Positions 3,768 through 26,786 of a DNA stretch of 26,786 bases are shown in pieces. The notes beneath the pieces are model-generated. The model made no database searches and was not told the DNA's origin. It saw only the letters and a list, made by a program, of their open reading frames with translations. Made by a program: the position numbers and the translations under genes. Position 1 is the stretch's first letter. Each line of letters starts with the position of its first letter. Source of the stretch: a virus; the IMG/VR virus record IMGVR_UViG_3300006917_000126, positions 1 through 26,786 of that record; one strand, 5' to 3'.

Positions 3768-6252
3768 CATCCAGATTCCAAACCTTCCCGTTGCCGTGTC
3801 TCTGAATGGCACGGAGGAGATGGAACTTGTTCAGTCCGGCGTATCCGTCCGCGCTACGACTCAACAAATTGCTGATTTGCAGGGTGTTGGCCCCACGGGC
3901 CCTACGGGTGCTGTTGGTCCGACCGGCCCCACGGGCGTGACTGGCCCGACCGGCCCAACTGGGGCAACTGGTCCTACCGGAACCCCCGGCAACTCAACCA
4001 GCTTGTTTCTGTTTCAAGCTAATACGGCTTCCACCAGCGGCTATCCGGGTGATGGATATATCCTCTGGAATAACGCTACCCAAACGTCGGCCACGCAGCT
4101 TAACATCAGCCATCTGACCGATAACGGCATTGACGTAGATATTTTTCTCTCGCTGCTGACGATTGGCGAGAGAATTATTGTTCAAGACCAATCGGCCAGC
4201 GCCAACTATCAGACGTTCACGATTACTGGTGCGCCGACTTCAGTTAACCCCGGCTCCCCAACTGCTTATTGGACCTATCCTGTCAGCCTTTTCTCGTCTG
4301 GCGGCACGGGAACCACTGGATTTTCTTTCGGCCTTCCGCTGTTCTTAGCTCTAATTGTTGGTCAGGCTGGCCCGACCGGCCCGACTGGTAACAATGGCCC
4401 GACCGGTCCTACGGGCGTTGGGGGTGCTACCGGCCCTACGGGCGCGACTGGCCCCAGCGGCGGCACGAGCTATACGGAATCACCTACTCCCCCACTAAGC
4501 CCGGTGGTTGGCGACCGTTGGCTCGATACTGATTCTGGTATCGAGTACACATGGATTTCTGATGCCAGCGGCGCGCAGTGGGTGGAGATCAACACCTCTG
4601 GCTTCATTGGGCCAAGCGGTCCTACGGGTGCGACTGGCCCCACTGGAGCGACCGGTGCTGTTGGCCCTACTGGCCCGACCGGATCGGTTGGCTCCACGGG
4701 TCCCACGGGTCCAACCGGCGTTTCTGGCCCGACTGGACCTACGGGTGCGGCTTCTACGGTGGCTGGTCCCACTGGACCTACCGGCCCGACAGGCGTTTCC
4801 GGCCCTACCGGCTCTGGAGGTCCAACCGGACCCACTGGCGCGGCTTCTACTGTGGCTGGTCCGACCGGACCTACCGGTGCTACTGGCGCAGTTGGCCCCA
4901 CCGGCCCCGGCGGCGCGCTTGCCAGCTATGGCTCGTTCTTCAGTGACGTTGACCAGACGGCGACGGTAAACACACCGACGCCGATGACGCTGAACAACAC
5001 AGCGGGCGCGACTAACATCTCTATCGTGTCAAACTCGCGGATTACGTTTGCTGCGGGCGGCACGTTTGACATTCAGTTCTCCGCTCAATTCCACAACACG
5101 GGCGGCGGCGGCTCTGGGCAGACGGTCAACATCTGGTTCCGCAAGAACGGTGTGGACATTCCAAGCTCTGACACCAAACTGACGGTTCCAAGCAATGCGC
5201 CGTATGTTGTGGCGGCATGGGATTATCTGGATACGTTCGTAGCGGGCGACTACGTTGAACTGATATGGATGACGGACAACGCCTCCATCATCCTTGAGCA
5301 TGAGCCGATTGGGGCGCTTAATCCGGCCATCCCGTCTCTCATTGTCAGCGTTATGCAGGTCATGTACCTGCAAGTTGGTCCTACCGGCCCCACGGGCGCG
5401 GGAGCTACTGGCCCGACCGGTCCTACAGGCGCTACCGGCAGCGCAGGCATTGATGGCCCCACAGGACCCACCGGCGTAGCGGGCGCATCTGGTCCTACAG
5501 GCCCCACGGGAGCCAACGGCATTGATGGGCCTACTGGCCCTACGGGCGTGGCTGGACCTACCGGCCCAACGGGCGCTAATGGTATTGACGGCCCCACAGG
5601 GCCCACTGGTGTCGCTGGTCCGACTGGTCCAACTGGCACTGCGGGCGTTGACGGCCCGACCGGGCCAACTGGAACTGCGGGTGTTGCTGGCCCCACGGGC
5701 CCAACGGGTGATATTGGACCCACTGGCCCTACGGGAGCCGCTTCTACTGTAGCGGGTCCGACTGGCCCGACCGGTACAGCCGGAACGGCTGGTCCCACGG
5801 GTCCTACTGGCCCGACTGGCGTTGCGTCCTACACCCGCACATCCTTCACGGCTACCGGCGGTCAGACGACGTTCTCGGTCACGTATACCGTGGGCTACAT
5901 TGAGGTCTACGTTAACGGCGTATTCCTAAATGGCTCTGACTATACGGCCACCACGGGCACGGATGTTGTCCTTGCCACGGCGTGTACGGCTGGCGATATT
6001 GTTGAGTTTGTCGCCATCTCTGTGAACACGTTCGGCGCTGGCCCGATTGGCCCGACTGGTCCTACGGGCGCGAGCGGCCCCACTGGCTTCTCGCCGCTGG
6101 TGGCTAACGACGCGATCATTCTTAACTACACAACGATCTCGGCTAACTACACGATGCCCACTTCTTACAATGGCATCTCTGTCGGCCCGATCACGATTGG
6201 CAGCGGGGCGACAGTGACGATTTCCTCGGGACAGCGCTGGGTGGTGATCTGA
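3760..6252 (+). CDS. Large collagen-like tail fibre protein with alternating globular domains
   Basis: An 830-residue fibre protein. Residues 1-43 form an N-terminal attachment-type region ([20 protein letters not shown]). Five blocks of collagen-type Gly-X-Y triplets, mostly GPT, follow at about residues 44-76, 201-233, 281-387, 540-689 and 761-778. Between them lie globular, beta-rich domains: 78-200; 236-280 ([15 protein letters not shown] motif); 390-538 (jelly-roll-like, with [17 protein letters not shown] and [11 protein letters not shown]); and 690-758 ([29 protein letters not shown]), a module seen repeatedly in phage fibres. The C-terminus (about 779-830) includes [10 protein letters not shown]. 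The triplet blocks should form triple-helical rods, making this a trimeric string-of-beads fibre. There is no catalytic motif. It overlaps the next ATG by one base. Confidence 0.8.
3889..3987 (+). repeat. Collagen-like Gly-X-Y coding block 1
   Basis: Eleven uninterrupted Gly-X-Y triplets, mainly GPT, encoded with many different synonymous codons so that the DNA is not a perfect 9-bp repeat. Confidence 0.9.
4360..4458 (+). repeat. Collagen-like Gly-X-Y coding block 2
   Basis: Eleven triplets ([18 protein letters not shown] types) linking two globular domains of the large fibre. Confidence 0.85.
4600..4920 (+). repeat. Collagen-like Gly-X-Y coding block 3
   Basis: A long GPT-rich block broken twice by the same off-register insert [10 protein letters not shown]. 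This repeated interruption indicates internal duplication. Confidence 0.88.
5377..5826 (+). repeat. Collagen-like Gly-X-Y coding block 4 (longest)
   Basis: About 50 triplets. Higher-order repeats such as [18 protein letters not shown] recur, and the [10 protein letters not shown] interruption of block 3 occurs again near the 3' end. Confidence 0.9.
6040..6093 (+). repeat. Collagen-like Gly-X-Y coding block 5 (short)
   Basis: About six triplets ([18 protein letters not shown]) joining the last two globular modules of the fibre. Confidence 0.8.
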
Positions 6253-6728
6253 TGAGTACGATTGCTGCGGGAACCACTGGCACAACCGCCCTGCAAAGCA
6301 CGGGCGACACGACCGGCAATCTGGTTTTCCAGACTAATGGCACCACGACTGCGCTGACGTTAACCAGCGCACAGGCGGCAAACTTTACGGGCGTCGTGTC
6401 GGATTCGGCTGGTAAACTGCGCGCTATTCCTCAGTCTGGATCGGCTAAGACCAGCAGCTATACGCTGGCTACCGGTGACGTGGGTGAGTTCATTCAGGTC
6501 AGCACCGGCGGCAGCATTGTTATCCCTGACGCGACGTTTTCAACGGGTGACGTGGTGTCGGTGTTCAACAACACGTCTGGCAGCATTACGATCACTTGCA
6601 CGATCACCACGGCCTACATTGGCGGCACGGACGCTGACAAGGCGACCGTTTCCCTCGCCACGAGAGGTGTCTGCACCATTCTGTTCATCTCTGGCACGGT
6701 CTGCGTGATTACGGGGAACGTCTCGTGA
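6252..6728 (+). CDS. Small beta-rich fibre protein, carrier type A (copy 1)
   Basis: A 158-residue protein whose ATG overlaps the previous stop (TGATG). The N-terminal 45 residues (TTALQSTGDTTGNLVFQTNG) resemble the start of the protein at 9422. The rest, from about residue 58 (IPQSGSAKTSSYTLATGDVG through [18 protein letters not shown] to the end), is closely similar to the C-terminal domain of the collagen-like protein at 12853. It therefore looks like a free-standing version of that fibre tip domain. No enzyme motif is visible. The next gene begins 4 nt inside this one (GTGA), so the two are probably made in fixed ratio. I infer a fibre segment that carries the glycine-rich protein encoded next. 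Confidence 0.65.
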   Translation: MSTIAAGTTGTTALQSTGDTTGNLVFQTNGTTTALTLTSAQAANFTGVVSDSAGKLRAIPQSGSAKTSSYTLATGDVGEFIQVSTGGSIVIPDATFSTGDVVSVFNNTSGSITITCTITTAYIGGTDADKATVSLATRGVCTILFISGTVCVITGNVS

Positions 6729-7576
6729 GCGGCATCCACCTCGCTCTTCTTGGTAGTCAATTTGGCAATGCAGGAAATGCCCCGCCAACAGTAGAGTATT
6801 TGGTTGTTGCAGGTGGTGGGGCCGGTGGAGGAAACGCTGGCGGTGGCGGCGGCGCTGGAGGCATGAGAACAGCGTCCGGGTTTGCTGTTTCATCTGGTTC
6901 AGCAATAACCGTTACTGTAGGCGCGGGTGGGGCAATTGGCGCAAGCTTAGGTAGAGGCTCAAGCGGCAGTAATTCTGTTTTTAGTACAATTACATCCACG
7001 GGTGGCGGCGGCGGCGGTGCTGGCCGTAGTGGCTCAAACGCGAATGGGCTTGCTGGTGGATCGGGTGGTGGAGCTGGATCAGCAGGGTCGTCAGGGGGCG
7101 TTGGAACAAGCGGGGAAGGTAATAATGGTGGGAACCCTTATGATGGAGGCGGTTCCGATGAAAACGGCGGCGGCGGCGGCGGCAAGAATGGGAATGGAGG
7201 AAGTGCTTCCTCTAATCAGGCAGGATCAGGTGGTTCTGGGGTTTCTTCTTCTATAAGTGGCGCTTCTGTTAATTATGCAGGTGGTGGCGGCGGTGGCGCT
7301 AATGCCGGAAGCGCGGGGAGCGGTGGCTCTGGTGGTGGAGGAGATGGCGGAAGGGCAACTACTGTAGGTCAGGCCGGGACAGCTAATACCGGCGGTGGCG
7401 GCGGTGCTGGGGGCGGAAGTGATGTCGCCGCCGGGGCGGGTGGATCGGGCGTCGTAATTGTCCGTTATGCTGACACATACTCAGCCGCGACATCAACAAC
7501 AGGCTCCCCAACAATCACTGTTTCTGGCGGCTTCCGCATTTATCGCTGGACCGGTAGCGGTTCCATTACGTTCTAG
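6725..7576 (+). CDS. Glycine-rich tail adhesin-like protein (copy 1)
   Basis: A 283-residue protein starting with GTG 6725, overlapping the upstream stop. After an 18-residue leader (MSGIHLALLGSQFGNAGN) comes PPTVEYLVVAGGGAGGG, then about 190 residues dominated by Gly-Gly-Gly-Gly runs, and a conserved end (SGVVIVRYADTYSAATSTTG, later FRIYRWTGSGSITF). Similar start and end segments occur in the proteins at 11953 and 13638. Poly-Gly regions of this kind can pack as polyglycine-II helices, as in the receptor-binding adhesin gp38 of Salmonella phage S16; I use that only as a structural analogy. A receptor-binding tip role is inferred from composition and position in a fibre array. Codons look more A/T-ending than in the capsid region. 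Confidence 0.7.
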   Translation: MSGIHLALLGSQFGNAGNAPPTVEYLVVAGGGAGGGNAGGGGGAGGMRTASGFAVSSGSAITVTVGAGGAIGASLGRGSSGSNSVFSTITSTGGGGGGAGRSGSNANGLAGGSGGGAGSAGSSGGVGTSGEGNNGGNPYDGGGSDENGGGGGGKNGNGGSASSNQAGSGGSGVSSSISGASVNYAGGGGGGANAGSAGSGGSGGGGDGGRATTVGQAGTANTGGGGGAGGGSDVAAGAGGSGVVIVRYADTYSAATSTTGSPTITVSGGFRIYRWTGSGSITF

Positions 7577-10006: not shown

Positions 10007-11065
10007 ATGCCCACCGCAATCAGCTTTGCCGCAGGATCAGCTAGAGGATTTGGGTTTGCAACCCTGTCTGCGGGTGGTTTTTTAGCTCTCTCACACGGTT
10101 TGACGCCGTTTGTGAGCGTCTATGCTTTCACTGCGAGTGGATTTGGCTCAAAATATGCAAATCCTGCTACGCTGCCTGCAAGCACAGGCGTGGGCGTTGC
10201 TTACAACCACAACTCAACTGTGTTGGCTGTAGCTCATGCAACAACCCCATTTTTAAGCGTGTATCCTTGGTCAGCTGGTGGGTTTGGAGCCAAATATGCC
10301 AATCCAGCTACTCTGCCAACAGGCTTAGGCAACGGCGTTGACTTTAACTCTAATAGCTCCGCGATAGCTGTTTCACATGGTGCAACGCCATATATCACCG
10401 CTTATCCGTGGTCTTCTGCTGGTTTTGGAACAAAATACGCCAATCCGTCTACGTTGCCGACAGGAACCGGTAATGGCGTAGCTTTTAGTCCTAGCGATGC
10501 TGCACTTGCGGTTTCTCATAACGCTTCGCCGTTTATCTCCATATATGCCTTTTCCGGGAGCGGTTTTGGGTCAAAATTTGCGGACCCAGCTACTTTGCCA
10601 ACAGGAACCGGAAATGGCGTTGCGTTTGCGCCGAACGGCTCTCATGTGGCAGTTGCTCATACTACGACGCCCTTTATCACGGCCTATCCTTGGTCGGGTG
10701 GCGGATTCGGAACTAAGTATGCCAATCCTTCAACTTTGCCGACAGGAACGGGTGATAGCGTTGCATTTAACCCAACTAGCACTGTTGTGGCGGTAGGACA
10801 TGGAACAAACACTTTTGTCTCAGCCTATGCGTGGTCTGGCAGCGGATTCGGAACCAAGTATTCAAACCCCGCCACCCTCCCTACTGGCGAGGGTTTTGGC
10901 GTGACGTTTAACGCAGCCGGTACGGCCATTGCGGTTGCCCACGGCACTACGCCATTTGTCACCGCTTATCCTTGGTCCAACGCAACCGGTTTTGGAACTA
11001 AGTACGCTAATCCTTCTACACTTCCACCCAGCACTGGCACTAGCGTGTCATTTGGCACAGCTTAA
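10007..11065 (+). CDS. Seven-repeat beta-propeller protein (WD40/YVTN-like), probable fibre tip
   Basis: A 352-residue protein made almost entirely of seven repeats of about 47 residues, each with the pattern [VA]-x-H-x-x-x-[PT]-[FY]-[VLI]-[ST]-x-Y-x-[FW] ... GFG-x-K-[YF]-x-[DN]-P-[AS]-TLP, followed by a strand such as GVAFNPTSTVVAVGHG. The conserved His of the first repeat is residue 30 and the next is residue 77. Seven blades of this size fit a closed beta-propeller. Residues 1-29 (AISFAAGSARGFGFATLSAG) are a leader plus the first strand; the last strand (SVSFGTA) probably closes the ring. Propellers are common carbohydrate- or protein-binding scaffolds; use as a receptor-binding tip is inferred. 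Start ATG 10007 has GAGGTAG upstream. Codon use seems more A/T-rich than in its neighbours. Confidence 0.75.
   Translation: MPTAISFAAGSARGFGFATLSAGGFLALSHGLTPFVSVYAFTASGFGSKYANPATLPASTGVGVAYNHNSTVLAVAHATTPFLSVYPWSAGGFGAKYANPATLPTGLGNGVDFNSNSSAIAVSHGATPYITAYPWSSAGFGTKYANPSTLPTGTGNGVAFSPSDAALAVSHNASPFISIYAFSGSGFGSKFADPATLPTGTGNGVAFAPNGSHVAVAHTTTPFITAYPWSGGGFGTKYANPSTLPTGTGDSVAFNPTSTVVAVGHGTNTFVSAYAWSGSGFGTKYSNPATLPTGEGFGVTFNAAGTAIAVAHGTTPFVTAYPWSNATGFGTKYANPSTLPPSTGTSVSFGTA
10091..11062 (+). repeat. Seven tandem ~141-nt beta-propeller repeats
   Basis: The units are about 141 nt (47 codons) long with diverged DNA but a strongly conserved encoded GFGxKYxNPxTLPxGxG core. The last unit carries one extra residue (SNATGFG). 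Confidence 0.85.
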
Positions 11066-11952: not shown

Positions 11953-12771
11953 ATGCCCACTATCGTCACGCGAGGCGTAGCATCTGCCAGAGCATTGGGC
12001 TTTGCAAGAATAACCGGCAATCCTCCTCCTACGGTTGAATACCTCGTTGTGGCGGGTGGTGGTGGAGCCGGATATGGCGGCGGTGGCGCGGGCGGTTATA
12101 GAACTGCCTCTGGGTTTGCTGTAACAAGCGGCTCTGCGATCACCGTTACTGTTGGCGCTGGTGGAAGCGGTAGCACCGGAAGCCCCTCTAATGGTTCAAA
12201 TTCTGTCTTCAGTTCCATAACAAGTCTTGGTGGCGGTTATGGAGGCTCATCAAACGATTATACTGGTGATACTGGCGGGTCCGGCGGCGGCGGATTTCTT
12301 GGTAATGGCAGCGGAGAGGCGAATGGTTCTCCGGGAACGTCAGGACAAGGTAATAGTGGAGGGCGTGGCGGGAGCGATGATGAAACGTACCGCACCGGCG
12401 GCGGCGGTGGTGGCGCAGGCGGGAGTGGAACGGATAGCGGCGGCGGCGGGGGTAACGGTGGTAACGGGTCATCGTCTAGCATCACTGGCTCATCCGTAAC
12501 TTACGCGGGTGGCGGTGGCGGAAACGGCTCCACCTCTGATGGCGCTGGATCAGGCGGCTCTGGCGGTGGCGGCACAAATGGTGGTTCCGGCACGGCAAAT
12601 ACCGGTGGTGGCGGCGGGGCCAATAGTGGAAGTGGCGGCTCTGGGGTGGTTATTATTCGGTATGCCGACACTTATTCTGCCGCGACAGCAACAACCGGGT
12701 CGCCTACAATTACTGTTTCTGGCGGGTATCGCATTTACCGTTGGACAGGCTCAGGCAGCATCACGTTCTAG
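11953..12771 (+). CDS. Glycine-rich tail adhesin-like protein (copy 2)
   Basis: A 272-residue paralogue of the 6725 and 13638 proteins: PPTVEYLVVAGGGGAGYGGG start, RTASGFAVTSGSAITVTVG strand region, Gly-rich core, and the ending SGVVIIRYADTYSAATATTG to YRIYRWTGSGSITF. Its 24-residue leader (TIVTRGVASARALGFARITG) differs from theirs but resembles the leader of the beta-propeller at 10007 (SARGFGFATLSAG versus SARALGFARITG). Both of those genes follow a type C carrier. GAGGTG precedes ATG 11953. I infer a receptor-binding tip mounted on the carrier encoded just upstream. Confidence 0.7.
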   Translation: MPTIVTRGVASARALGFARITGNPPPTVEYLVVAGGGGAGYGGGGAGGYRTASGFAVTSGSAITVTVGAGGSGSTGSPSNGSNSVFSSITSLGGGYGGSSNDYTGDTGGSGGGGFLGNGSGEANGSPGTSGQGNSGGRGGSDDETYRTGGGGGGAGGSGTDSGGGGGNGGNGSSSSITGSSVTYAGGGGGNGSTSDGAGSGGSGGGGTNGGSGTANTGGGGGANSGSGGSGVVIIRYADTYSAATATTGSPTITVSGGYRIYRWTGSGSITF

Positions 12772-12852: not shown

Positions 12853-13637
<785 letters not shown>

Positions 13638-13638
<1 letters not shown>

Positions 13639-14504
13639 TGGCCGCAGTCCACCAAATCTGTCTTGCGACTCAGACGCCGCTACCGGCCCCGCCAAGCGTG
13701 CAATATCTGGTTGTGGCAGGCGGTGGTGGAGCTGGCTCTGACATGGGTGGCGGTGGTGGTGCAGGTGGTTATCGCACGGCCAGCGGCTATTCCGTCACCG
13801 GAGGCTCGACGTATACCGTAACCGTTGGCGCGGGTGGCGCACGCGGCGGCTCTACTGGCAAAGGCTCAAACGGGTCTAACTCCGTCTTTGACACCATCAC
13901 ATCTACCGGTGGTGGCGCTGCCACTGGCGGTTTGGATGCTTTTGATGGTTTCGCGTCTAATTCTGGCGGTTCTGGCGGTGGTGGTGGTTCTGATTCTAGC
14001 GGTAATCCCGGCGGCGCAACGCCGGGGTCCGGCACTAGCGGTCAGGGCAACTCTGGTGGTTCTGGGTCGGCCTATAATGGTTCTTACAAAGCTGGCGGCG
14101 GTGGCGGTGGCGCTGGCGCAGGCGGTCAAGATGGCTACATTGATTCGGCTCCGCGTTATGCGGGCGCGGGCGGCGCGGGTCTGCAAGCCTTTGACGGAAG
14201 CTACTACGCTGGCGGTGGCGGCGGCGGTAGCGTGAACGCTCCTAACGGCGGCGCAGGCGGTATTGGTGGCGGTGGCACGGGTAGTGATACTGTTGCCGGA
14301 ACGGCGGGAACTGCCAATACCGGTGGCGGCGGTGGCGGTGGCACCAATAACGAGTTTGGCGGAAATGGCGGCTCTGGCGTTGTTATTCTCCGTTACGCTG
14401 ATTCTTATCGTGCAGCCACATCTACAACTGGCTCTCCCACTGTGACTGTTTCTGGTGGGTTCCGAACGTATAAGTGGACATCTTCCGGCAGCATCACATT
14501 TTAA
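13638..14504 (+). CDS. Glycine-rich tail adhesin-like protein (copy 3)
   Basis: A 288-residue paralogue of the glycine-rich proteins at 6725 and 11953, starting at an ATG that overlaps the upstream stop by one base. After an 18-residue leader (MAAVHQICLATQTPLPAP) come PPSVQYLVVAGGGGAGSD, RTASGYSVTGGSTYTVTVG, a Gly-rich core of about 170 residues, and the ending SGVVILRYADSYRAATSTTG to YKWTSSGSITF. The leader loosely resembles that of the 6725 protein ([IV]H near residue 4-5 followed by a hydrophobic run), and both follow a type A tip domain. A receptor-binding role is inferred. Confidence 0.7.
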
Positions 14505-14516
14505 AGAACCGCGCCA

Positions 14517-16343
14517 ATGGCAAATGACAAAGCATCAGTTGTTGGTGGTCAAATCCGTCTAGGCCGCGATCCGGCTAACGGCGAACTGCTTATTGGCGAT
14601 GGTTCTGGTTTCACGCTCGGATCACTAACCGCTGGCACCAACGTCACAATCACTAGCCCGTCTCCGGGTGAGATTGAGATTTCGGCTACTGGCGGGGGTG
14701 GTGGCGCTGGCCCGACAGGACCAACTGGTGCTGTTGGACCCACCGGACCTGCGGGCGGCGGCGGTGGTGGTGCAACAGGTCCCACTGGTCCTACGGGTCC
14801 GACCGGACCTACTGGAGCAGGGACAACTGGCCCGACAGGTCCGACGGGCTCCATTGGCCCGACTGGTCCGGGTGTGGGTGCAACTGGTCCAACAGGTCCT
14901 ACAGGTCCGTCTGGCGCTGGTCCTACTGGCCCAACCGGCACTAGCGGCCCGACCGGTCCTACTGGAACGGCTGGTCCAACGGGACCCGGTGTCGGCGCAA
15001 CTGGTCCTACAGGCCCAACAGGGGCAACCGGTGCTGGCGGCACGGGTCCTACAGGTCCTACAGGGGCTAATGGAATTGATGGCCCGACAGGCCCGACTGG
15101 TGCAACTGGTCCTGCCGGTGGTGGCCCAACGGGTCCGACGGGTCCCGCGTCTACGGTAGCGGGCCCGACTGGTCCTACGGGAAGTTCTGGCACTGCTGGT
15201 GCCGTTGGCCCAACTGGGCCGACAGGCGCATCAGGTGGTGGCGGTTCCTCATTTTGGGTTAGCGTTGCTGATTATGGGGCTGTCGGTAACGGCTCAACAG
15301 ATGACACGTCTGCCTTTCAGTCTGCAATCAACTCTCTCGGCGCGGCTGGCGGTACAGTTATCATTCCTGATGGGTTCCGGTGCCGAATCGCTTCCAATCT
15401 GACGGTGAAGCCAAATGTGACCCTGAAAGGTCCGTTTAAGTACGTGGGCACCCCCGGCAACAACTCTTCTACGCCCTATGGCAGCGTGTCCGCTATTCTT
15501 CTGAGTTCTAGCGCCACCATTGAGCTTCAAGGCGGCGCTGGCGTTGATGGCTGTCTCATCTACCGTTATGGCATGTCATTCCCGGAAAGTAGTTCTTCTG
15601 GGTTCTCTGGCACGGCCATTCAAGTTAGCTCCTATGACGATGCGTTTGTCACAGGCTCTATGATCCTTGGCTTCAATCAGGCCATTTACTCCACCAACTC
15701 TCAGAGAATCAGAGTGGTGGATGTCTATATTGACTGTAACAACGGTGTGTGGATTGACCAGTGCGCAGACATCTCGCGTCTGGCGCGGGTGCATTGCTGG
15801 CCGTTTGTCACCATTGCGGGCGGGGGCGGAACGTCTCGTCTTCAGAGAAGCGGCAACGCTTTTTACTTCACTAATCTCAATGACTGGGGCAAGGTAGTTG
15901 ACTGCTTCAGCTACGGGTATTTTAGAGGTTATCACGTTAACGGACCTGATGAGATGTCCTTCATCGGGTGTGGTGCTGACAATACACCCGGTGCTTATTC
16001 CGGCTCCATTGGGTTCCTTGTCACGGGCAGCAGCACCAATACGACATTGGTTGGCTGTCAAACCGCAGCGCAACAAAACGGATATTACTTCTCAACGTCT
16101 GGCAGCAGCCGCATGATTCACTGCGATGCTTGGGGCTGCACAGACAATGGGATTGTTGTCTCCGCTGGCGATGTAGCTATTATGGGTGGCGGCATCCGTT
16201 ATGTTGGGCCTTATGGTCCGGCGACAGGATTGGCTCGCGTAGGTGGCAACGCATATGTGTGGGGTGTTGGGTTCCAGACAGGCGGAACCATGACGCCGAC
16301 TTCTGGCACTATTACTACTATGCCTGCGACTTATACATTCTAA
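14517..16343 (+). CDS. Tailspike: collagen-like stalk plus pectate-lyase-type beta-helix
   Basis: A 608-residue protein. Residues 1-63 are an N-terminal module ([20 protein letters not shown], then a [19 protein letters not shown] strand region). Residues about 65-240 are GPT-rich collagen triplets with a repeated [14 protein letters not shown] interruption. From residue 244 it matches the start of the pectate-lyase superfamily right-handed beta-helix ([40 protein letters not shown]), a hallmark of tailspikes that bind or cleave surface polysaccharide. The remainder (to 608) has short Gly/Asn-rich coils as in beta-helices. I cannot place catalytic residues, so it may be a depolymerase or a non-cleaving lectin. 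It is followed 20 nt later by the glycosyltransferase fusion gene. Confidence 0.82.
14709..15233 (+). repeat. Collagen-like Gly-X-Y coding block of the tailspike
   Basis: About 58 triplets, mostly GPT, with irregular interruptions (GPGVGATG twice, [10 protein letters not shown] once). The STVAGPT interruption is also present in the large fibre at 4750-4860 and near 5745, suggesting exchange between the genes. Confidence 0.87.
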
Positions 16344-16363: not shown

Positions 16364-17956
16364 ATGCCGTTTAGCTCTCAGTCTGGCAAAGCCAGCATCA
16401 AATGGGTTATGTCCAAAATTCCGCAGCCTGAAACTGCGTTGGACATTGGCGTTGGCGAGGGTACTTACGCCAAGCTATTCCCTAAAATTAAATGGACAGG
16501 CGTTGAGATTTGGGAGCCATACGTTGAGAAGTATGGCCTTAATAAGCTGTATCCTGACCTGCATATTTCGGATGCCAGAACGTGGGACACAGATCAGCGC
16601 TTTGACGTATGCTTCCTTGGCGATGTTCTTGAACATATGGAGAAGGACGAGGCACAGGCTCTTGTCCGCCGCGCCAAGTGTTGGGCTGCGACTGTCATCA
16701 TCAGCATCCCTATTGGCAAGTATCCGCAGGGTGAGTTTGAGGGCAACCCCCACGAGGCCCATGTTACTGACAATTGGTCTGACGCCGACGTTAAACTGTG
16801 CTTTGGCAAGCCTACGTGGTCTTATATTGACGGTGAGATCGGCGTGTATGTTTACTCGCCGTTTGAGATCAAGTTAACTTACTGCGTCTACGCCATCAGC
16901 AAGAATGAGGAACAATTTGTTCAGCGGTTCTGCGAGTCTGCCAAAGAGGCTGATCTTGTCCTCATTGCTGACACTGGAAGCACTGATAGGACGGCTGATC
17001 TATCCCGTGAGTGCGGCGCAAAGGTCCACGATATTTACGTCAACCCTTGGCGCTTTGACATCGCTCGCAATGCTGCTCTTGCTCTTATTCCCCGGTCTAT
17101 TGATATTTGCATATCGCTGGATTTGGACGAGGTTTTAGAGCCGGGCTGGAAAGACAAGATTGAGCGTGTCTGGGTCCCCGGTAAGACTACGAACCTGTGG
17201 TACTACTTTGACTGGGGCCACAACATCCGGTTCCCCTATCGCAAAATCCACAGCCGTCACGGCTACCACTGGCACCACCCCTGCCATGAGGATTTGCGGA
17301 TTGATGGGCGCGTGGAGCATGTCACGGCATGGTGTCCGCACCTGCTCGTGTCACATCACCCGGACCCGACCAAAAGTCGTGGTCAATACATGGAAATGCT
17401 GGAGGTGGCTGTCAAAGAGGACGCCACCGATCCGCATCATTATTTCTACTATGCCCGCGAGTTGACGTTCTATCGCCGCTGGGAGGAAGCCAAGAAGGCG
17501 TTGACGACCTATCTGGGCATGAACGCCGCCAGCAATCAGAACGAGCGGTGCTACGCCATGCGACTCATGGGTAAGTCCTACGCTGAGACTGGCGACATAG
17601 TGCAGGCTGAGAAGTGGTATTACATGGCCGCTGGCGAGGCCCCCAATACCCGCGAGCCGTGGTGCGAGCTTGCCATGCTCATGTATCGCCAGAGTCGTTG
17701 GGAGGAGTGCTTCGCCGCCTCCATGCGTGCGCTGAAGATCAAGGATAAACAGCTTGTCTATACCTGTGACCCGGCGGTTTGGGGCTACTGGGCGCACGAT
17801 CTTGCCAGCATTTCTGCTTGGCGGCTTGGGCTAAAAGACATTGCCCTTGAGCAGGCAAAAATTGCGGCTGAGATGGAGCCTAACGACTTACGTTTGAGAC
17901 AAAATTTAGAGTATATTCTCAACGCAATTCAGGCGCAGGGGGAGAAAGCGGCATGA
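16364..17956 (+). CDS. Methyltransferase-glycosyltransferase-TPR fusion enzyme
   Basis: A 530-residue three-part protein with AAGGGGG before ATG 16364. Residues about 1-165 resemble a class I SAM-dependent methyltransferase: the glycine-rich motif LDIGVGEGTY (26-35), an acidic residue after the next strand (E48 in GVEIWE), and FDVCFLGDVLEHM (80-92). Residues about 172-330 are a GT-A family 2 glycosyltransferase: YAISKNEEQFV (176-186), LVLIADTGSTDRTADLS (198-214) and a DxD-type motif SLDLDEVLEPGW (251-262). Residues about 345-525 form TPR-like helical repeats (KKALTTYLGMN, QAEKWYYMAAGEAPNTREPW, AKIAAEMEPNDLRLRQNLEY). GT2-TPR proteins are known in bacteria and phages. Its substrate is unknown. 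The position directly after collagen-like fibres suggests it may modify those fibres or a host surface glycan; that is inference. Confidence 0.78.
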   Translation: MPFSSQSGKASIKWVMSKIPQPETALDIGVGEGTYAKLFPKIKWTGVEIWEPYVEKYGLNKLYPDLHISDARTWDTDQRFDVCFLGDVLEHMEKDEAQALVRRAKCWAATVIISIPIGKYPQGEFEGNPHEAHVTDNWSDADVKLCFGKPTWSYIDGEIGVYVYSPFEIKLTYCVYAISKNEEQFVQRFCESAKEADLVLIADTGSTDRTADLSRECGAKVHDIYVNPWRFDIARNAALALIPRSIDICISLDLDEVLEPGWKDKIERVWVPGKTTNLWYYFDWGHNIRFPYRKIHSRHGYHWHHPCHEDLRIDGRVEHVTAWCPHLLVSHHPDPTKSRGQYMEMLEVAVKEDATDPHHYFYYARELTFYRRWEEAKKALTTYLGMNAASNQNERCYAMRLMGKSYAETGDIVQAEKWYYMAAGEAPNTREPWCELAMLMYRQSRWEECFAASMRALKIKDKQLVYTCDPAVWGYWAHDLASISAWRLGLKDIALEQAKIAAEMEPNDLRLRQNLEYILNAIQAQGEKAA

Positions 17957-19751: not shown

Positions 19752-19784
19752 ATGGTATCATGAGCAAAACCGCGAGGCTTGACC

Positions 19785-20501
19785 GTGACTACAGGTCTTA
19801 CTTACTCCACTTATAAGACCCAGATTGCGACCTTGGCGGTTGTTTCTGAGACAGATGCCAATTTTTTGACAATCCTGCCTCAGACCATCACCTACGCTGA
19901 GAACCGCATTTATCGCGATCTTGATCTTCTCAGCACGGTTACGAGCAACACGTCCTACTCTTTGACCGCTGGCAACAGGAACGTAACGGTTCCTGCGTCT
20001 ACGTTTGTCACGATCCAAGAGGTGAACGTGCTGCTGCCTGCTGGCGCGGTAGACCCGGAGATCAGCACACGTGTCGCCCTTGTGCCGACGACCAAAGAGT
20101 TCCTTAACGTAGTCTATTCCAGCATCAGCGGAGCAGCTACGCCGGAATACTTTGCGATGTTGGATCAGAGCAGCTTTGTTGTTGGTCCATGGCCTGACAA
20201 CAACTACACGGTAGAGATTGTTGGCACGATCCGTCCTGCCAGCTTGTCGGCTGCTAATACCGAAACATTCATCAGTCTGTATCTGCCTGACCTCTTCATC
20301 ATGGCAAGCATGATTTACGTGTCTGGCTATCAGCGTAACTTTGGCCGTCAGTCAGATGACCCCGCCATGGCGCAATCTTATGAAACGCAGTACCAAGCTC
20401 TTCTGAAGGGCGCGACTGTTGAAGAGTACCGCAAGAAGTTCCAGTCTAGTGGTTGGTCTTCTATGTCGCCTGCTGTTGTTGCAACGCCTTCTCGGGGATA
20501 A
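19785..20501 (+). CDS. Head-tail adaptor protein (SU10-type adaptor-like)
   Basis: A 238-residue protein. GTG 19785 is preferred over TTG 19779 because GAGG (19774-19777) is 7 nt from the GTG but only 1 nt from the TTG. The N-terminal half is helical (YSTYKTQIATLAVVSETDAN; LPQTITYAENRIYRDLDLLS), then beta-rich (RNVTVPASTFVTIQEVNVLL; GPWPDNNYTVEIVGTIRP), and the C-terminus is helical with a mobile Ser/Pro tail (AQSYETQYQALLKGATVEEY). This order fits phage adaptors that form a ring beneath the portal, as in SU10-type podoviruses. It directly precedes the nozzle-like gene by 3 nt. It is distinct from the gp4-like connector at 2344, so two adaptor-like proteins are encoded. Confidence 0.72.
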   Translation: MTTGLTYSTYKTQIATLAVVSETDANFLTILPQTITYAENRIYRDLDLLSTVTSNTSYSLTAGNRNVTVPASTFVTIQEVNVLLPAGAVDPEISTRVALVPTTKEFLNVVYSSISGAATPEYFAMLDQSSFVVGPWPDNNYTVEIVGTIRPASLSAANTETFISLYLPDLFIMASMIYVSGYQRNFGRQSDDPAMAQSYETQYQALLKGATVEEYRKKFQSSGWSSMSPAVVATPSRG

Positions 20502-20504
20502 TAA

Positions 20505-22601
20505 ATGCCCCACGCTTCACTAAAGCTAGTTCCCGGCGTTGATCAGAACAAAACACCCGCTTTGAATGAGGCGGGTATTTCTGAATCAAATCTGATCCGG
20601 TTCATTCCTGACAGGAACGGCCTTGGTCTGGTTCAGAAACTTGGCGGCTGGACACAGTTCTATCCCAACCCGATTGAAAGCCCTGTCCGCGCGCTTCATG
20701 CGTGGCAAGGTCTTAGCACGGACACGTATCTGGCAATCGGTGCCGAAGAATCTCTGTCGGTCTTGACTCCAGTTACGTCTACTACACGCAACCGGAAAGA
20801 CATCACTCCGCAGACGACCGATAGCACAACGTCTGTGTCTTTCACGACGACGACCGGCGCTAACGGTTATATCGTGAATGTGGATGATACTGCCAGTAAC
20901 ATTGATAACTATGACTCTGTTTGGATTAAAACACAGGTGTCCGTTGGTGGCTTGATCCTGTTTGGCGTTTATCAATGCTATGCAGTTAGTGCTAATCAGT
21001 TTCAGATTTATGCTCGGGACAAACTTGGCAATCTTGAATATGCCACTTCTGCGGTTGCTGCTGGCGGTTCACTAGCGCAGTTTGCTACGACTAGTGGCTC
21101 TGCGAGCGTTACTGTAACCTTGAACAATCATGGCTACGTAGACGGGGGGTTCTTCCCCGTGCTGGTTGCGACGACCGTTGGCGGAATTACGTTCTCCGGC
21201 GTTTATGAAGTCTTTAACGCAACCACTAATACGTTCACGATTACCGCCAACAACACAGCTACAGCTACGACAACTGGATATATGAACGGCGGAAACGCTC
21301 AGTTCACATATTTCAACGGTGTCGGGCCACTGGCGGGCGGAACCGGTTACGGTGTTTTGGGTTATGGCCGTGGTGGTTATGGCACTGGAACGCCGCAGCC
21401 TGCGGGAACAGGAACGCCTATCACGGCTACTGATTGGTCCTTGGACAACTGGGGCGAGACGTTACTCTCATGCCCAGCAGGCGGAGCAATCTATTACTGG
21501 TCGCCTACATCCGGCAATCCTATTGGCGTCATTATTCCAAATGCCCCGCCAGTAAATGATGGCATGTTTGTCGCGATGCCTCAGCGTCAGGCAATCGCAT
21601 GGGGTTCCACGTTTGATGGCGTGCAAGACCCCCTTTTGATCCGCTGGTCAGATGTCGGTAACTTTAATCAGTGGATTGGCTTGGTTGAGAATCAGGCCGG
21701 TTCATACCGCATACCCAAAGGCTCCAAGATTGTGTCCTGTATTCAAGGCCCTCAACAGGGTCTTGTTTGGACGGACCTTTCTGTTTGGGCGATGCAATAT
21801 ATTGGCTACCCGGATGTGTACGGGTTTAACGAGATTGGAACGGGCTGCGGTCTGATCTCTCGCAAAGCCTGCGCGTCCATGAACGGCGTGGTTTACTGGA
21901 TGAGCCAAAGCCAGTTCTTCCGGCTGGCTGGTTCTGGTCCTGAGCCTATTCCGTGCCCCGTCTGGGACGTAATCTTCCAAGACTTGGACACAGACAATTT
22001 GGACAAGATTAGAATCGCTCCAAATAGCCGGTTCGGTGAAATCTCTTGGTTCTATCCCACTGTCGGCAATGGCGGAGAAATTAGCCATTACGTTAAGTAC
22101 AATATCTATCTGAACAGTTGGGACTTTGGCACGTTGCAGCGGACGGCTTGGATTAACCAGTCCGTCCTTGGACCGCCTATCGGCGCGGGTCTTCTGCCGG
22201 GAGGCGCTGATCCGTTCATTGTACAGCATGAGACATCTACAAACGCTGTTAATGCTGGCAATGAATCGGTAGCCATGAACTCGTACTTCCAGACTGGTTA
22301 CTTCCAGCTTCAGGACGGCGATCTGCTGACATTCATTGACCAATGGTGGCCCGACGCTAAGTGGGGCTACTACGGCAGTCAGGATCAGGGAGCAGAATTG
22401 CTGCTGACATTTTATGTCACGCAATATGCCGGTGACACGCCTATCGCCTATGGCCCGTTCACGCTGACTGAAGCAACGCAGTATGTAACACCCCGACTGC
22501 GCGGACGTTTGGTGTCCATGAAGATTGAAAGCAACGACATCAACACGTTCTGGCGTATCGGCAATATGCGCTATCGCTGGCAACCTGACGGGAAGTTCTG
22601 A
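20505..22601 (+). CDS. Tail hub/nozzle protein, P22 gp10-like
   Basis: A 698-residue protein resembling P22 gp10 (packaged DNA stabilisation protein), which forms the hexameric tube below the portal and carries the fibres. The N-terminus has the family start (LKLVPGVDQNKTPALNEAGI, LIRFIPDRNGLGLVQKLGGW). Beta-propeller-like repeats rich in Trp and Gly follow (AIAWGSTFDGVQDPLLIRWS; LVWTDLSVWAMQYIGYPDVY; YNIYLNSWDFGTLQRTAWIN), and it ends in WRIGNMRYRWQPDGKF. Residues about 100-250 form an insert of Ser/Thr-rich beta domains (VTVTLNNHGYVDGGF; VYEVFNATTNTFTITANNT) similar in style to the insert in the zinc-ribbon protein at 3030. ATG 20505 follows GGGGATAATAA. It overlaps the next gene by one base. 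Confidence 0.8.
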   Translation: MPHASLKLVPGVDQNKTPALNEAGISESNLIRFIPDRNGLGLVQKLGGWTQFYPNPIESPVRALHAWQGLSTDTYLAIGAEESLSVLTPVTSTTRNRKDITPQTTDSTTSVSFTTTTGANGYIVNVDDTASNIDNYDSVWIKTQVSVGGLILFGVYQCYAVSANQFQIYARDKLGNLEYATSAVAAGGSLAQFATTSGSASVTVTLNNHGYVDGGFFPVLVATTVGGITFSGVYEVFNATTNTFTITANNTATATTTGYMNGGNAQFTYFNGVGPLAGGTGYGVLGYGRGGYGTGTPQPAGTGTPITATDWSLDNWGETLLSCPAGGAIYYWSPTSGNPIGVIIPNAPPVNDGMFVAMPQRQAIAWGSTFDGVQDPLLIRWSDVGNFNQWIGLVENQAGSYRIPKGSKIVSCIQGPQQGLVWTDLSVWAMQYIGYPDVYGFNEIGTGCGLISRKACASMNGVVYWMSQSQFFRLAGSGPEPIPCPVWDVIFQDLDTDNLDKIRIAPNSRFGEISWFYPTVGNGGEISHYVKYNIYLNSWDFGTLQRTAWINQSVLGPPIGAGLLPGGADPFIVQHETSTNAVNAGNESVAMNSYFQTGYFQLQDGDLLTFIDQWWPDAKWGYYGSQDQGAELLLTFYVTQYAGDTPIAYGPFTLTEATQYVTPRLRGRLVSMKIESNDINTFWRIGNMRYRWQPDGKF

Positions 22602-22963: not shown

Positions 22964-23512
22964 ATGCCACTGAAAAAAGGTTCATCCCAAAAAACAGTTA
23001 GCTCCAACATCTCGGAGCTTGTTCACTCGGGCAAGCCGCAGAAGCAGGCTGTTGCAATAGCTTTGAATGTTGCTCGGGAGAGTCGCGCCAAGAGAGCGTT
23101 TGGTGGCAACGTCACGACTACAGAAAAGGTCCATGTTGGCCCGATCCACTCTCCGGTCGCTGGCCGCACTGACCATCTGCCTATGCACGTTCACTCTGGA
23201 TCGTATGTCATCCCGGCTGACATCATCTCGGCCATGGGTGAAGGCAATACGATGGCAGGTTTTAAGGTTGCCAATGAACTATTCGGGCCTGAGCAGGGTA
23301 TTCCATTGGCGAGGGCAAAAGGGGGAGAGACTGGTGAGATTGTTCCAATCATAGCGGCAGGCGGTGAATATGTGATTCACCCGGACGACGTAACGCGAAT
23401 TGGCAACGGGACCTTGGATGAGGGGCACAAGGTTCTGGACCACTTTGTGAAAAAGATGCGGGCCAAGACGGTCCAAACCTTGAAGAATTTACCCGGCCCC
23501 GCTAAGGACTAG
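22964..23512 (+). CDS. Conserved phage protein with DUF6496-like N-terminus and duplicated YVI motif
   Basis: A 182-residue protein. The N-terminus (MPLKKGSSQKTVSSNISELV, GKPQKQAVAIALNVARES) matches a short helical domain I recall as DUF6496, common in phage virion genes. The C-terminal part has two related units: SGSYVIPADIISAMGEGN with TMAGFKVANELF, and GGEYVIHPDDVTRIGNG with TLDEGHKVLDHFVKKMR, pattern G-x-YVI-x-x-D ... G-x-G ... G-x-x-[VL]. This motif is frequent in phage internal or tape-measure-like proteins. A segment HVGPIHSPVAGRTDHLPMHV links the parts. GGGGTAAG precedes ATG 22964. A minor virion or internal protein is likely; no enzyme function is visible. Confidence 0.68.
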   Translation: MPLKKGSSQKTVSSNISELVHSGKPQKQAVAIALNVARESRAKRAFGGNVTTTEKVHVGPIHSPVAGRTDHLPMHVHSGSYVIPADIISAMGEGNTMAGFKVANELFGPEQGIPLARAKGGETGEIVPIIAAGGEYVIHPDDVTRIGNGTLDEGHKVLDHFVKKMRAKTVQTLKNLPGPAKD

Positions 23513-23515
23513 CTT

Positions 23516-24007
23516 ATGTCTGAAGATATTGGCATCAGGGTTGGCACGCCGGAGGACGTAGATGCGATCATGGAGATCGCTCTGTCGGCGTGTGAAGAAA
23601 ATGGGTTTGTTGACCCCAATCCTGCAAAGCTTCTGGGTGAAATCTGGCCCGCGCTTAATCTGGAAAAGGGCCTGATCGGAATTATTGGCGATCCCGGTGG
23701 CAAGGCAGAAGGAGCAGTTCTTCTGCGAATTGGATCAATGTGGTATAGTGATAAAGAGGTGCTTGAGGAGAAGGCTATCTTTATTCACCCCGACTACCGC
23801 AGCGCTAAAGGGGGCAGGGCGCGTCGGCTTTGTCAGTTTTCTAAACAGGTAGCCGACAGTCTTGGCATCCCGCTTATTATTGGGGTGCTGTCTAACAACA
23901 GGACCGAAGCCAAGGTCCGCCTTTATGAGCGTCAGTTTGGTAAGCCAAGCGGTGCGTTCTTCCTTTACAATGCCCGTACTGGCGGGTTCAGGGCTGCTGC
24001 GGAGTAA
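23516..24007 (+). CDS. GNAT-family N-acetyltransferase
   Basis: A 163-residue protein with the GNAT layout: an N-terminal strand and helix (IGIRVGTPEDVDAIMEIALS), a central strand before the acetyl-CoA loop (EEKAIFIHPDYRSA), the pyrophosphate-binding region KGGRARRLCQFSKQVADSL, and C-terminal IPLIIGVLSNNRTEAKVRLY, ERQFGKPSGAFFLYN. The usual Q/RxxGxG/A loop is represented by a variant (RSAKGGRARR). These enzymes move acetyl from acetyl-CoA to an amine. Similar genes lie among structural genes in marine and freshwater podovirus-like genomes, just before the internal virion proteins. The substrate is unknown; acetylation of a virion or host protein is a guess. Confidence 0.75.
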   Translation: MSEDIGIRVGTPEDVDAIMEIALSACEENGFVDPNPAKLLGEIWPALNLEKGLIGIIGDPGGKAEGAVLLRIGSMWYSDKEVLEEKAIFIHPDYRSAKGGRARRLCQFSKQVADSLGIPLIIGVLSNNRTEAKVRLYERQFGKPSGAFFLYNARTGGFRAAAE

Positions 24008-24012
24008 CTGGA

Positions 24013-26786
24013 ATGGGTGGAAAGACCGCTACAACTACGCAATCGGTCAAAATCCCTGAAGAGGTGATGGCCCGATATAATGCGGTCAATGCCCGCGCTG
24101 AAGAAGTGGCAAAACAGCCCTTTCAGCAATATCAGGGGCAGTTTGTAGCTCCACTCACCCAGACACAGCAGGCAGGTATTGCCGGGACTTCCGCCGCAGC
24201 AGGAATGGCCCAGCCGTACTATCAAGGAGCTACGCAGCAGCTTCTTGGCGCACAGCAGGCAGCGACTCCTCTCTACTATGGCGCGCTTGGCACCGCTGGC
24301 GGGGCCGCAGAACAGGCTCAGAACCTCTACGGTTCAGCTCTTGGCGGCATTAATCAGGCTCAGAGAGCAGGTCAATCCATCACTGGCGCGGCCATGCAGC
24401 CGATCATGGGAGCCCAGCAGGCTTCTGCGCCCCTAATGGGTGCCGCCGCTGGTTTGACCGGGGCTGGTCTTTCTGCTGCACAGCCGTACATGGGCGCTGC
24501 TGGTGGCTATCTGGCTGGTGGCACGCAGGGGATTGCTCCGGGTGCGCTTACTGGTCAGGAAATCAACCAGTATATGTCGCCTTATATGTCTAATGTGATT
24601 GGAGCCCAGCAGGCGCTTCAGGCACAAGAGAACGCAGCGCAGCGTGCCGCTCTATCCAGCCAGCAGATTGGACGCGGTTCCTTTGGTGGTGAACGGGCTG
24701 GTCTGGGTCAGGCCAATCTGGCTAGACAGCAAAGCCTCGCCAATCAGGCGACTCTCGCCAACCTGCTTCAGTCTGGATACGGGCAGGCCCTTGGCACAGC
24801 CCAACAGCAGCAGGCGCAGCAGCTTGCGGCGGAACAGGCGAATCGCGCGGCCATGCAGTTCGGCGTGCAGGCCGCTGGCAATCTGGGTCAACAGGCTTTC
24901 GCGCAGAACCTTGCTGCGGGTCAACAGCTTGCCAATCTCGGTCAGTCTGCATTTGGGCAGAACATTGCTCAAGGCCAAGCTCTTGCTGGTCTTGGTCAGC
25001 AGCAGTACGCTCAGGGTCTTGGCGCTGCTCAGGCGCAGGCTGGCATCGGCCAAAACATTTATGGCATGGGCGCGCAGCAGGCGGCGCTTCAGCAGGGCGT
25101 TGGGCAGGGCCTTTATGGCATGGGCGCTCAAACCGCTCAGTCCTTGGCGGGGCTTGGCGCGGGTGCGCAGCAGGCCGCGTTGCAGGGTGCGCAGGCTCAG
25201 ATTGGCGCTGGCACGCTGGAGCAGCAGACTCAGCAGGCCGACGCTACGGCTCGCTATCAGCAGTTCCTTCAGGAGCGTGGGTATCCGTTCCAAGTGGCGC
25301 AGTTCCTTGCGAACATCGCCATGGGCACGGGCGCACTGTCTGGCAGCACCACCACCACGCAGCAGCCTGCTCCGTTCTTCTCTGACGTGCGACTCAAGGA
25401 TGATGTTGAGCCCGTCGGTGAGCTTTATGACGGCCAGAAGGTCTATCGCTACAGCATGGGTGATGGGCCCAAGCAGCTTGGTCTGCTGGCTCAAGAAGTT
25501 GAAGGCGTGCGCCCGGATGCTGTTGGCGAGGCTTCAGGCTTCAAGACCGTTGACTATGACCGCGCTACTGAACAGGCGGCTGGCCTTGGCGCTGCGGCAT
25601 CCATGGGTGGCGCTGTCACCCAGCCGGGCGCTTATGCTGCGGGCGGTCTGGTAGACGGCGACGATCTCAAGGCTATTCTTGCTGCGCAGGCGCAGTCGTT
25701 CGGTCCATTTGGCGGCGCTGGCATGTATGGCGGCAGTGCGCAGGGCGCTCCGTTTGGCGGCGTTAAGGGCTTTGTGCCGGATGCCAAATTGCCGGTCGCC
25801 AAACTTGCGACGGCTGGTAATGCGCCTGCCCAGCGCCAGTCTGGTCTTGGTGAAGCCGTTCAGACTGGCAAATCTATTGCTGACCTTGGCAAGATGGCAA
25901 AGACTGGCCTTGTTGGGTCCGAAGCCACCAAGGACAATCCCAAGGGTGACGCTGGACTGTTTGGTTCTGGCGGCAAGTTCTCGTCCGAAGACAATCTCTT
26001 CACTCGCGGCAAAGAGTTTTTGGGTTTCTCCTACGGCGGACTGGTGCCGCGTGATGGCTATGCCACCGCAGGTTCGGTGAACCCTTATGAGAAGACTGAG
26101 GACCCGCTTGAGAATGTGCTTGAAGAGCAGAGCAAGAATGACATTGAGCCGATTAAGCCCGGTCAAATGCCTGCTCCTCCCAAGTCTGCGATGAGTGACA
26201 TCTTAGACATGGGTAAATTGGCAATGGCCGCATATTCCATGTCGGATGCTCGCTTGAAAGATAATATCCGACCCGTGGGCGAGACGTATGACGGCCAGAA
26301 CATCTATGCCTATGACATGGGTGATGGTCGCACCCGCATTGGCTTGATGGCGCAGGAAGTCATGAAGCGTCATCCTGAAGCGGTTGGTGAGCGCAACGGG
26401 TATCTGACGCTGGACTACGACAGAGCGACTGGCGAGGCTACGCCGTATGCTTACGGCGGTCTGGTCCCGCGCCAAAGGTACGCCACTGAGGGCGCTGTTG
26501 AGGAAGAGCCCGCGTTTGACATTGAGAAAGCCAAGGGCGCGATTGCCTCTATTGAGAGCAGGGGTCAAGCCGCGCCATATGAGGCCCTTGGCCCTGTGAC
26601 AAAACGCGGCGACCGTGCCTACGGCAAATATCAGGTCATGGGAGCTAACATTCCGTCGTGGACGGAAGAGGCCCTTGGCAAGCGTCTGACGCCGGAAGAG
26701 TTTGTGAAAAACCCTGACGCTCAAGAGAAGGTGTTTGAGCATCACTTTGGGAAAGCCGTTAAACAATACGGCAATCCTTATGATGC
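24013..26786 (+). CDS. Giant internal virion/ejection protein with two S74 autoprotease motifs and a lytic domain (3' cut)
   Basis: At least 924 residues with no stop before the window ends. ATG 24013 has GGAG 8 nt upstream. Residues 1-90 are an ordered N-terminal part. About 95-450 is Gln/Ala/Gly-rich and helical (ALQQGVGQGLYGMGAQTAQS), like ejection proteins. An S74 chaperone/autoprotease motif is at S457-D-V-R-L-K462, continuing GQKVYRYSMGDG and LGLLAQEVE; a second is at S744-D-A-R-L-K749, continuing GQNIYAYDMGDG and IGLMAQEVM. Both keep the Ser/Lys spacing (Ser to Lys +5) of the S74 dyad. GGLV motifs recur (AAGGLVDGD about 543; YGGLVPRDGYAT about 675; YGGLVPRQRYAT about 815). From about 836 (AIASIESRG; YGKYQVMGANIPSW) a transglycosylase-like domain starts, with E848 the probable catalytic Glu. 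Overlapping ORFs here are shadows. Confidence 0.78.
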   Translation, partial: MGGKTATTTQSVKIPEEVMARYNAVNARAEEVAKQPFQQYQGQFVAPLTQTQQAGIAGTSAAAGMAQPYYQGATQQLLGAQQAATPLYYGALGTAGGAAEQAQNLYGSALGGINQAQRAGQSITGAAMQPIMGAQQASAPLMGAAAGLTGAGLSAAQPYMGAAGGYLAGGTQGIAPGALTGQEINQYMSPYMSNVIGAQQALQAQENAAQRAALSSQQIGRGSFGGERAGLGQANLARQQSLANQATLANLLQSGYGQALGTAQQQQAQQLAAEQANRAAMQFGVQAAGNLGQQAFAQNLAAGQQLANLGQSAFGQNIAQGQALAGLGQQQYAQGLGAAQAQAGIGQNIYGMGAQQAALQQGVGQGLYGMGAQTAQSLAGLGAGAQQAALQGAQAQIGAGTLEQQTQQADATARYQQFLQERGYPFQVAQFLANIAMGTGALSGSTTTTQQPAPFFSDVRLKDDVEPVGELYDGQKVYRYSMGDGPKQLGLLAQEVEGVRPDAVGEASGFKTVDYDRATEQAAGLGAAASMGGAVTQPGAYAAGGLVDGDDLKAILAAQAQSFGPFGGAGMYGGSAQGAPFGGVKGFVPDAKLPVAKLATAGNAPAQRQSGLGEAVQTGKSIADLGKMAKTGLVGSEATKDNPKGDAGLFGSGGKFSSEDNLFTRGKEFLGFSYGGLVPRDGYATAGSVNPYEKTEDPLENVLEEQSKNDIEPIKPGQMPAPPKSAMSDILDMGKLAMAAYSMSDARLKDNIRPVGETYDGQNIYAYDMGDGRTRIGLMAQEVMKRHPEAVGERNGYLTLDYDRATGEATPYAYGGLVPRQRYATEGAVEEEPAFDIEKAKGAIASIESRGQAAPYEALGPVTKRGDRAYGKYQVMGANIPSWTEEALGKRLTPEEFVKNPDAQEKVFEHHFGKAVKQYGNPYD

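Follow-up and report, generated by a model that had tools for sequence, protein, structure and literature searches.

The window analysed here, the whole stretch of 26,786 nucleotides, ends within a plus-strand open reading frame (24013-26784) that stays open up to the contig end and carries two Peptidase_S74 domains. The features discussed below are as follows.

19779..20501 (+): head-tail adaptor, SU10_adaptor (PF24175)
20505..22601 (+): nozzle or P22 gp10-like virion protein (phrog_3287)
23516..24007 (+): GNAT-type acetyltransferase, the gene before E1 in several relatives (phrog_1249, weak Pfam match)
24013..26784 (+): very probable fused ejection-protein gene, residues 1-924 of 1491, completed by L005:6001-10476
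24013..25380 (+): N-part, residues 1-456, homologous by hhalign to separate podoviral E1 (gp7-like) proteins with their S74 left out
25381..25563 (+): first S74 domain (S74-1), residues 457-517, from Pfam and the AF2 core; putative scissile bond F456/S457
25564..26241 (+): central region, residues 518-743, from the sequence
25642..25659 (+): GGLVDG glycine segment, downstream of S74-1
26035..26052 (+): GGLVPR segment inside the central region, upstream of S74-2
26242..26424 (+): second S74 domain (S74-2), residues 744-804, from Pfam; putative scissile bond M743/S744
26455..26472 (+): GGLVPR segment, downstream of S74-2; AYGGLVPRxGY is conserved in two-copy relatives
26536..26784 (+): lytic (lysozyme/transglycosylase-fold) domain, residues 842-924, extending to 964 in L005 (phrog_24990, phrog_6654)

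The fused gene and its surroundings

The original prediction described a Gln-rich protein of more than 924 residues with S74 motifs in mid-chain. The mid-chain position holds, and the length is corrected to 1491 aa (about 157 kDa) by the contig L005, which is 100% identical to the window frame over 924 aa; 974 residues of frame remain downstream of S74-1. An assembly artefact or read-through is ruled out by this identical contig together with 43 distinct complete relatives, each encoded by one uninterrupted frame (1162-1931 aa). In L005 the fused gene is followed by a 789-aa ORF and then by a fibre-like ORF. The N-part is rich in Q (19%), A (22%) and G (15%), and a pI of 4.7 is calculated for residues 457-743. 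The N-part of the window protein (24013-25380, +) has 456 residues compared with about 270 in most relatives, and the additional length comes from repeats rich in Gln, Ala, and Gly that appear to recur about every 18 residues.

A lytic domain had been proposed to follow the second S74, and it proved to be real, as seen from the PHROG matches and from a lysozyme/transglycosylase fold. The domain model aligns with bacterial Slt (6cf8) at Z 11.2 and with the T7 core protein gp16 (7eyb_I, residues 24-156) at Z 11.0, and Glu848 (26554-26556), within a conserved IES motif, is the candidate catalytic residue. On the basis of the modelled transglycosylase/lysozyme fold, the window-type lytic domain is predicted to be wall-degrading. 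The lytic family found behind S74-2 and AYGGLVPRxGY varies among relatives, including the window type, SLT, phage lysozyme, Hydrolase_2, GH108, and Transglycosylas; in the alignment of relatives the joint is kept and the lytic cassette is exchanged. Given this swapping of lytic families behind S74-2, the S74/GG segments serve as module joints.

Several other features of the window can be described. Two SU10-type head-tail adaptor genes, at 2344-3033 (+) and 19779-20501 (+), flank a fibre cassette, and this dual layout resembles the 'dualA' arrangement of phage phiGT1 (PMC10386132). Long collagen-like GPTGPTG runs occur in several virion-type proteins encoded at 3760-6252, 12853-13638, and 14517-16343 (+), one of them fused to a pectate-lyase-like domain, and Gly-rich proteins (6725-7576, 11953-12771, and 13638-14504) are interspersed among them. 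The ORF at 10007-11065 (+) encodes a repeat protein with about seven HGTTPFVTAYPWS-type units, whose sequence is suggestive of a beta-propeller. A single ORF at 16364-17956 (+), midway through the structural module, encodes a methyltransferase part joined to family 2 glycosyltransferase and TPR-like parts.

Relationship to separate ejection proteins

In the window phage the order is adaptor, nozzle, acetyltransferase, fused gene, and next ORF; Sulfitobacter phage phiGT1 and Rhizobium phage RHph_N2 have this order with a separate S74 protein in place of the fused one, and a similar order is found in Pseudomonas phage AH02. At the place corresponding to the fused gene, cultured podoviruses encode separate P22 gp7-like proteins (E1) of 271-367 aa, in which an S74 domain ends 1-26 residues from the C-terminus. 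Such S74-ended E1 proteins occur in phiGT1, RHph_N2, AH02, Vibrio PVA1 and 199E37-1, Microcystis Mae-JY35, RHph_Y1_10, and Bradyrhizobium ppBeUSDA76-2, and they are followed by larger genes, which in several of these phages carry annotations as injection or DNA-transfer proteins. The separate E1 proteins match PHROG 'DNA ejection protein' families (4287 and 6121); the N-part of the AH02 S74 protein matches phrog_598 'DNA ejection', and the gene after it carries the annotation P22-like injection translocase. Searching the viral contigs for further separate-gene forms, with L079 E1, L079 E2, or phiGT1 E2 as queries, yielded nothing new.

With the S74 domains removed, the N-parts of the window family and of the separate E1 proteins align with each other (hhalign probability 96.7, E 4e-10), and residues 1-328 of one relative, L050, match phrog_4287. 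This homology indicates that the window protein starts out like a gp7-type ejection protein, with S74-1 at the point where such a protein usually stops. Because many cultured podoviruses have S74-ended gp7-like proteins, S74-1 appears to mark an old gene end rather than a new insertion. The premise that S74 normally occurs once, at the C-terminus of tailspikes or fibres, thus needs to be widened, since the domain is not confined to fibres. In the P22/LUZ24-type E1 proteins phiGT1_17, RHph_N2 EVC05_012, and AH02 gp11 (PHROGs 4287, 6121, and 598), gene position, a homologous N-part, and a short S74 with SDxxxK and without trimer helix are shared with the window, whereas the window protein continues beyond this S74, the last domain of the separate proteins, for 974 more residues, which include another S74 and a lytic domain.

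No homology between the C-part and separate E2 (P22 gp20-like) proteins is detected by hhalign, and a single weak hmmsearch match (E 0.0016) links the C-part to the E2 of L079; the fusion with the next gene is therefore deduced from gene order and from the annotated lytic domain of the second phiGT1 protein. Profile comparison by hhalign shows no homology between the ORF following the fused gene and E3. Since a separate 789-aa ejection-type ORF still follows, at most the first two proteins have been joined. Accordingly, the idea of one polyprotein in place of three separate ejection proteins stands as far as the fusion relative to separate-gene podoviruses is concerned, but does not extend to the third protein. 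Collectively, the gene product is very probably a fused ejection protein. A fibre origin of the gene is rejected on the basis of the gene order and the N-part homology to ejection families. The window phage appears to be a podovirus, a virion shape that, like the host, we infer.

The ORF after the fused gene (e.g. L005:10473-12842, +), for which no family match was found, has in most relatives a conserved C-terminal tail of the TKPLLNAPDEHIAKALEIANRHI type, which in the window phage is preceded by a GG motif. A short [RYF]AxGG[LVK] motif also occurs in neighbouring virion-type proteins, as RAFGGNV and RADGGKV, at sites in the window ORF 22964-23512 (+) and in L005:10473-12842 (+). It resembles the segments behind each S74 and may function as a packaging or hinge signal common to these proteins.

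The S74 domains, their conservation, and their fold

The two S74 motifs, S457...K462 and S744...K749, were confirmed at the predicted positions, with codons at 25381-25383 (Ser457), 25396-25398 (Lys462), 26242-26244 (Ser744), and 26257-26259 (Lys749). PF13884 (Peptidase_S74) was detected by hmmscan in two stretches of the ORF (E 2.3e-13 for the protein). In the genome profile search, the Pfam core of S74-1 (25381-25524, residues 457-504) scored 28.0 bits (E 8.5e-8) and that of S74-2 (26242-26385, residues 744-791) scored 32.5 bits (E 3.4e-9); as both exceed the curated cut-off of 22 bits, chance motifs can be ruled out. A GGLVPR-type segment had been placed after each S74. This is correct for S74-2, whereas the segment after S74-1 reads GGLVDG and the other GGLVPR precedes S74-2.

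A viral-contig scan with search patterns that did not include the SDxxxK motif gave 78 loci. In all 43 distinct complete relatives the S74 is internal; 17 of the 43 have two copies and the other 26 have one, so the two-copy form is not universal. The nearest annotated relative, 'internal virion protein D' of Caudoviricetes sp. ct7L0027 (MW202675.1), is an 1185-aa fused chain with an N-part, an internal S74, a lytic domain, and the same gene order, but with one S74 only and a lytic domain of a different family (SLT). A genome scan extended the family to bacterial assemblies. Among these is a 397-kb contig of Rhizobium sp. BK316, whose prophage has a fused gene with one S74 (L101); the scan also found one additional two-copy member, L095. 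In the S74 tree, support for which is limited because the domain is short, the second copies fall mostly into one group of 16, with those of L069 and L095 elsewhere. Changes between first- and second-copy labels number at least two as forced by well-supported branches and five on the best tree, from which second copies appear to have arisen more than once. The position of the L095 second copy outside the main second-copy clade suggests an independent duplication. This two-S74 fused protein (L095:5177-10480, 1767 aa) lies on a contig binned as Candidatus Paceibacterota.

SDxxxK, the catalytic motif of S74 (PMC10769870), is kept in 86 of 86 S74 copies, with the motif Arg lost in three. The motifs of the separate E1 proteins were located by an SDxxxK regular expression, so the viral-contig set provides the cleaner test of conservation; in its 70 distinct copies, eight columns show no variation at all, and four of them are S, D, R, and K. 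The second copies retain Ser and Lys as strictly as the first (20 of 20), and all four residues also persist in a first-copy clade that has diverged along a branch of 1.16 changes per site. The very divergent first copies of L018, L019, L029, and L077 score about 22 bits against the family profile and keep SDxRxK, while much else in the domain differs. The Ser-to-Lys spacing of five is also found in MyRF (S587/K592) and endoNF (S911/K916) (PMC8326128).

The fold and the surrounding elements were compared with those of known S74-type domains. The AF2 model of S74-1 shows a beta-beta-beta-alpha-beta-beta core followed by a short low-confidence helix, with modest confidence (mean pLDDT of 60, core of about 75). 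Its top-ranked and sole related PDB match, a weak one, is the MyRF ICA domain (Foldseek probability 0.47-0.69); the VIA comparison with MyRF ICA gives Z 4.8 over 68 residues with an rmsd of 2.8, a value to be read with the modest confidence of the model. For S74-2, a single-sequence PDB search returned no S74 structure and a profile search returned weak S74 matches only, and in the fold comparison of the S74-2/lytic model the lytic domain took up all of the listed matches, leaving no S74 structure among them. MyRF provides a precedent for an internal S74/ICA domain cutting a chain (PMC8326128), and its ICA (PDB 7dc3) shares with the window protein the internal position and a Ser-Lys dyad at +5. 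Unlike the window protein, MyRF is a membrane transcription factor with a single cut and a C-terminal coiled coil. Its cutting requires the trimer, and the coiled coil drives trimerisation (PMC8326128); a C-terminal helix of the coiled-coil type is likewise present in T5 pb1 (PMC4690869). The fibre S74 chaperones of K1F endosialidase, T5 pb1, and GA-1 gp12 resemble the window copies in the Pfam domain, the Ser at the cut site, and the Lys at +5, but each has one C-terminal S74 with a coiled-coil helix in a trimeric fibre, whereas the window has two internal, helix-less copies. No heptad helix was found downstream of S74 at either window copy or in the fused relatives, and it is absent from nearly all S74s at the free C-terminus of ejection-type proteins, L106 with a short helical tail behind S74 being a possible exception. 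Fibre S74s of related genomes (L003, L006, L028, and L041) are followed by a heptad helix of 22-40 aa, e.g. LVFALINAVKELSAEVEALKAKLP.

Possible self-processing and its implications

The best overall explanation, to which we assign a probability of about 0.5, is that a gp7-like protein and the next ejection gene have been joined and that the S74 domains process the resulting chain. A gp7-like protein with a short C-terminal S74 would have been joined to the next ejection gene, encoding a wall-degrading protein, with a second S74 at the second joint, and each S74 would cut the chain before its own Ser during virion assembly. The products would be an N-part of 456 aa (45.9 kDa, mature E1), a central part of 287 aa (29.3 kDa), and a lytic part of 748 aa (81.6 kDa). 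The N-terminal product would equal the mature gp7-like protein minus its S74, the last would bear the lytic domain, and a single gene would give the pieces that other podoviruses encode in separate genes. The lytic part could open the peptidoglycan for the DNA channel, as does T7 gp16, which is likewise an ejected virion protein with a transglycosylase-fold domain, but with that domain N-terminal and with no S74. As the usual trimerising helix is absent, the oligomer that triggers cutting would have to come from the rest of the protein. When the invariance of Ser and Lys is weighed against the absent trimer helix and the weak MyRF ICA match, cutting at one or more sites is slightly favoured. 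Cutting at both sites, giving a three-way polyprotein, falls somewhat short of an even chance, and the full scheme, in which two helix-less S74s release pore-type, central, and wall-degrading parts in a fixed ratio upon assembly of the internal core instead of fibre trimerisation, is more tentative again.

The same data could be read without any cutting, which we consider less probable although a serious contender. The short S74 would then be a folded assembly or docking domain, the chain would remain whole in the virion and be ejected unfolded through the tail, and the S74/GG segments would act as structural hinges and recombination joints. This would agree with the missing trimer helix of ejection-type S74s, even at nearly all free C-termini, with the exchange of lytic families behind a conserved S74-2/GGLVPR joint, and with the sufficiency of one S74 in many relatives; moreover, T7 gp16, too, is ejected as a long chain of several domains, as described in a review (PMC8954989). 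A purely structural domain would not, however, be expected to keep Ser and Lys in every one of 86 copies while the adjacent Arg can vary. This invariance, equal in the 20 second copies, also weighs against partial processing, in which S74-1 alone would cut and free the N-part while S74-2, a duplicated non-cutting joint, holds the lytic cassette, as does an S74-2 score no lower than that of S74-1. Partial processing is improbable on balance, even though every relative has an S74-1-type copy, the separate E1 proteins end in one, and second copies are an optional extra, mostly of one clade. It is highly improbable that the S74s derive from a fused tail spike or fibre and serve the ordinary S74 use: the window is rich in fibre-like genes and S74 is best known from fibres, but the gene stands where ejection proteins are encoded, ejection families match the N-part of its product, neither a beta-helix nor a fibre domain was found in the window protein, and related genomes have separate fibres with their own full S74.

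The occurrence of S74 in ejection proteins is not new, as the domain is already annotated at their C-terminus in public genomes; what is new is its internal, duplicated, and fused arrangement. In open-access papers, we found no discussion of the internal or duplicated form, of the loss of the trimer helix, or of ejection-protein cutting, and no published cleavage evidence for an S74-ended ejection protein, proteomics included. Proteolytic maturation of ejection proteins by a protease of their own was not mentioned in the searched passages of the review (PMC8954989).

Ejection proteins are poorly understood. If S74 cuts, a whole class of podoviruses would have an extra maturation step, the S74-ended separate gp7-like proteins would be explained, and S74 cutting without a coiled coil would be shown. 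If S74 does not cut, the exceptionless Ser-Lys pair needs another explanation. Should the proposal be true, a fibre-maturation domain would have been reused to produce several ejection proteins from one gene in a fixed ratio.
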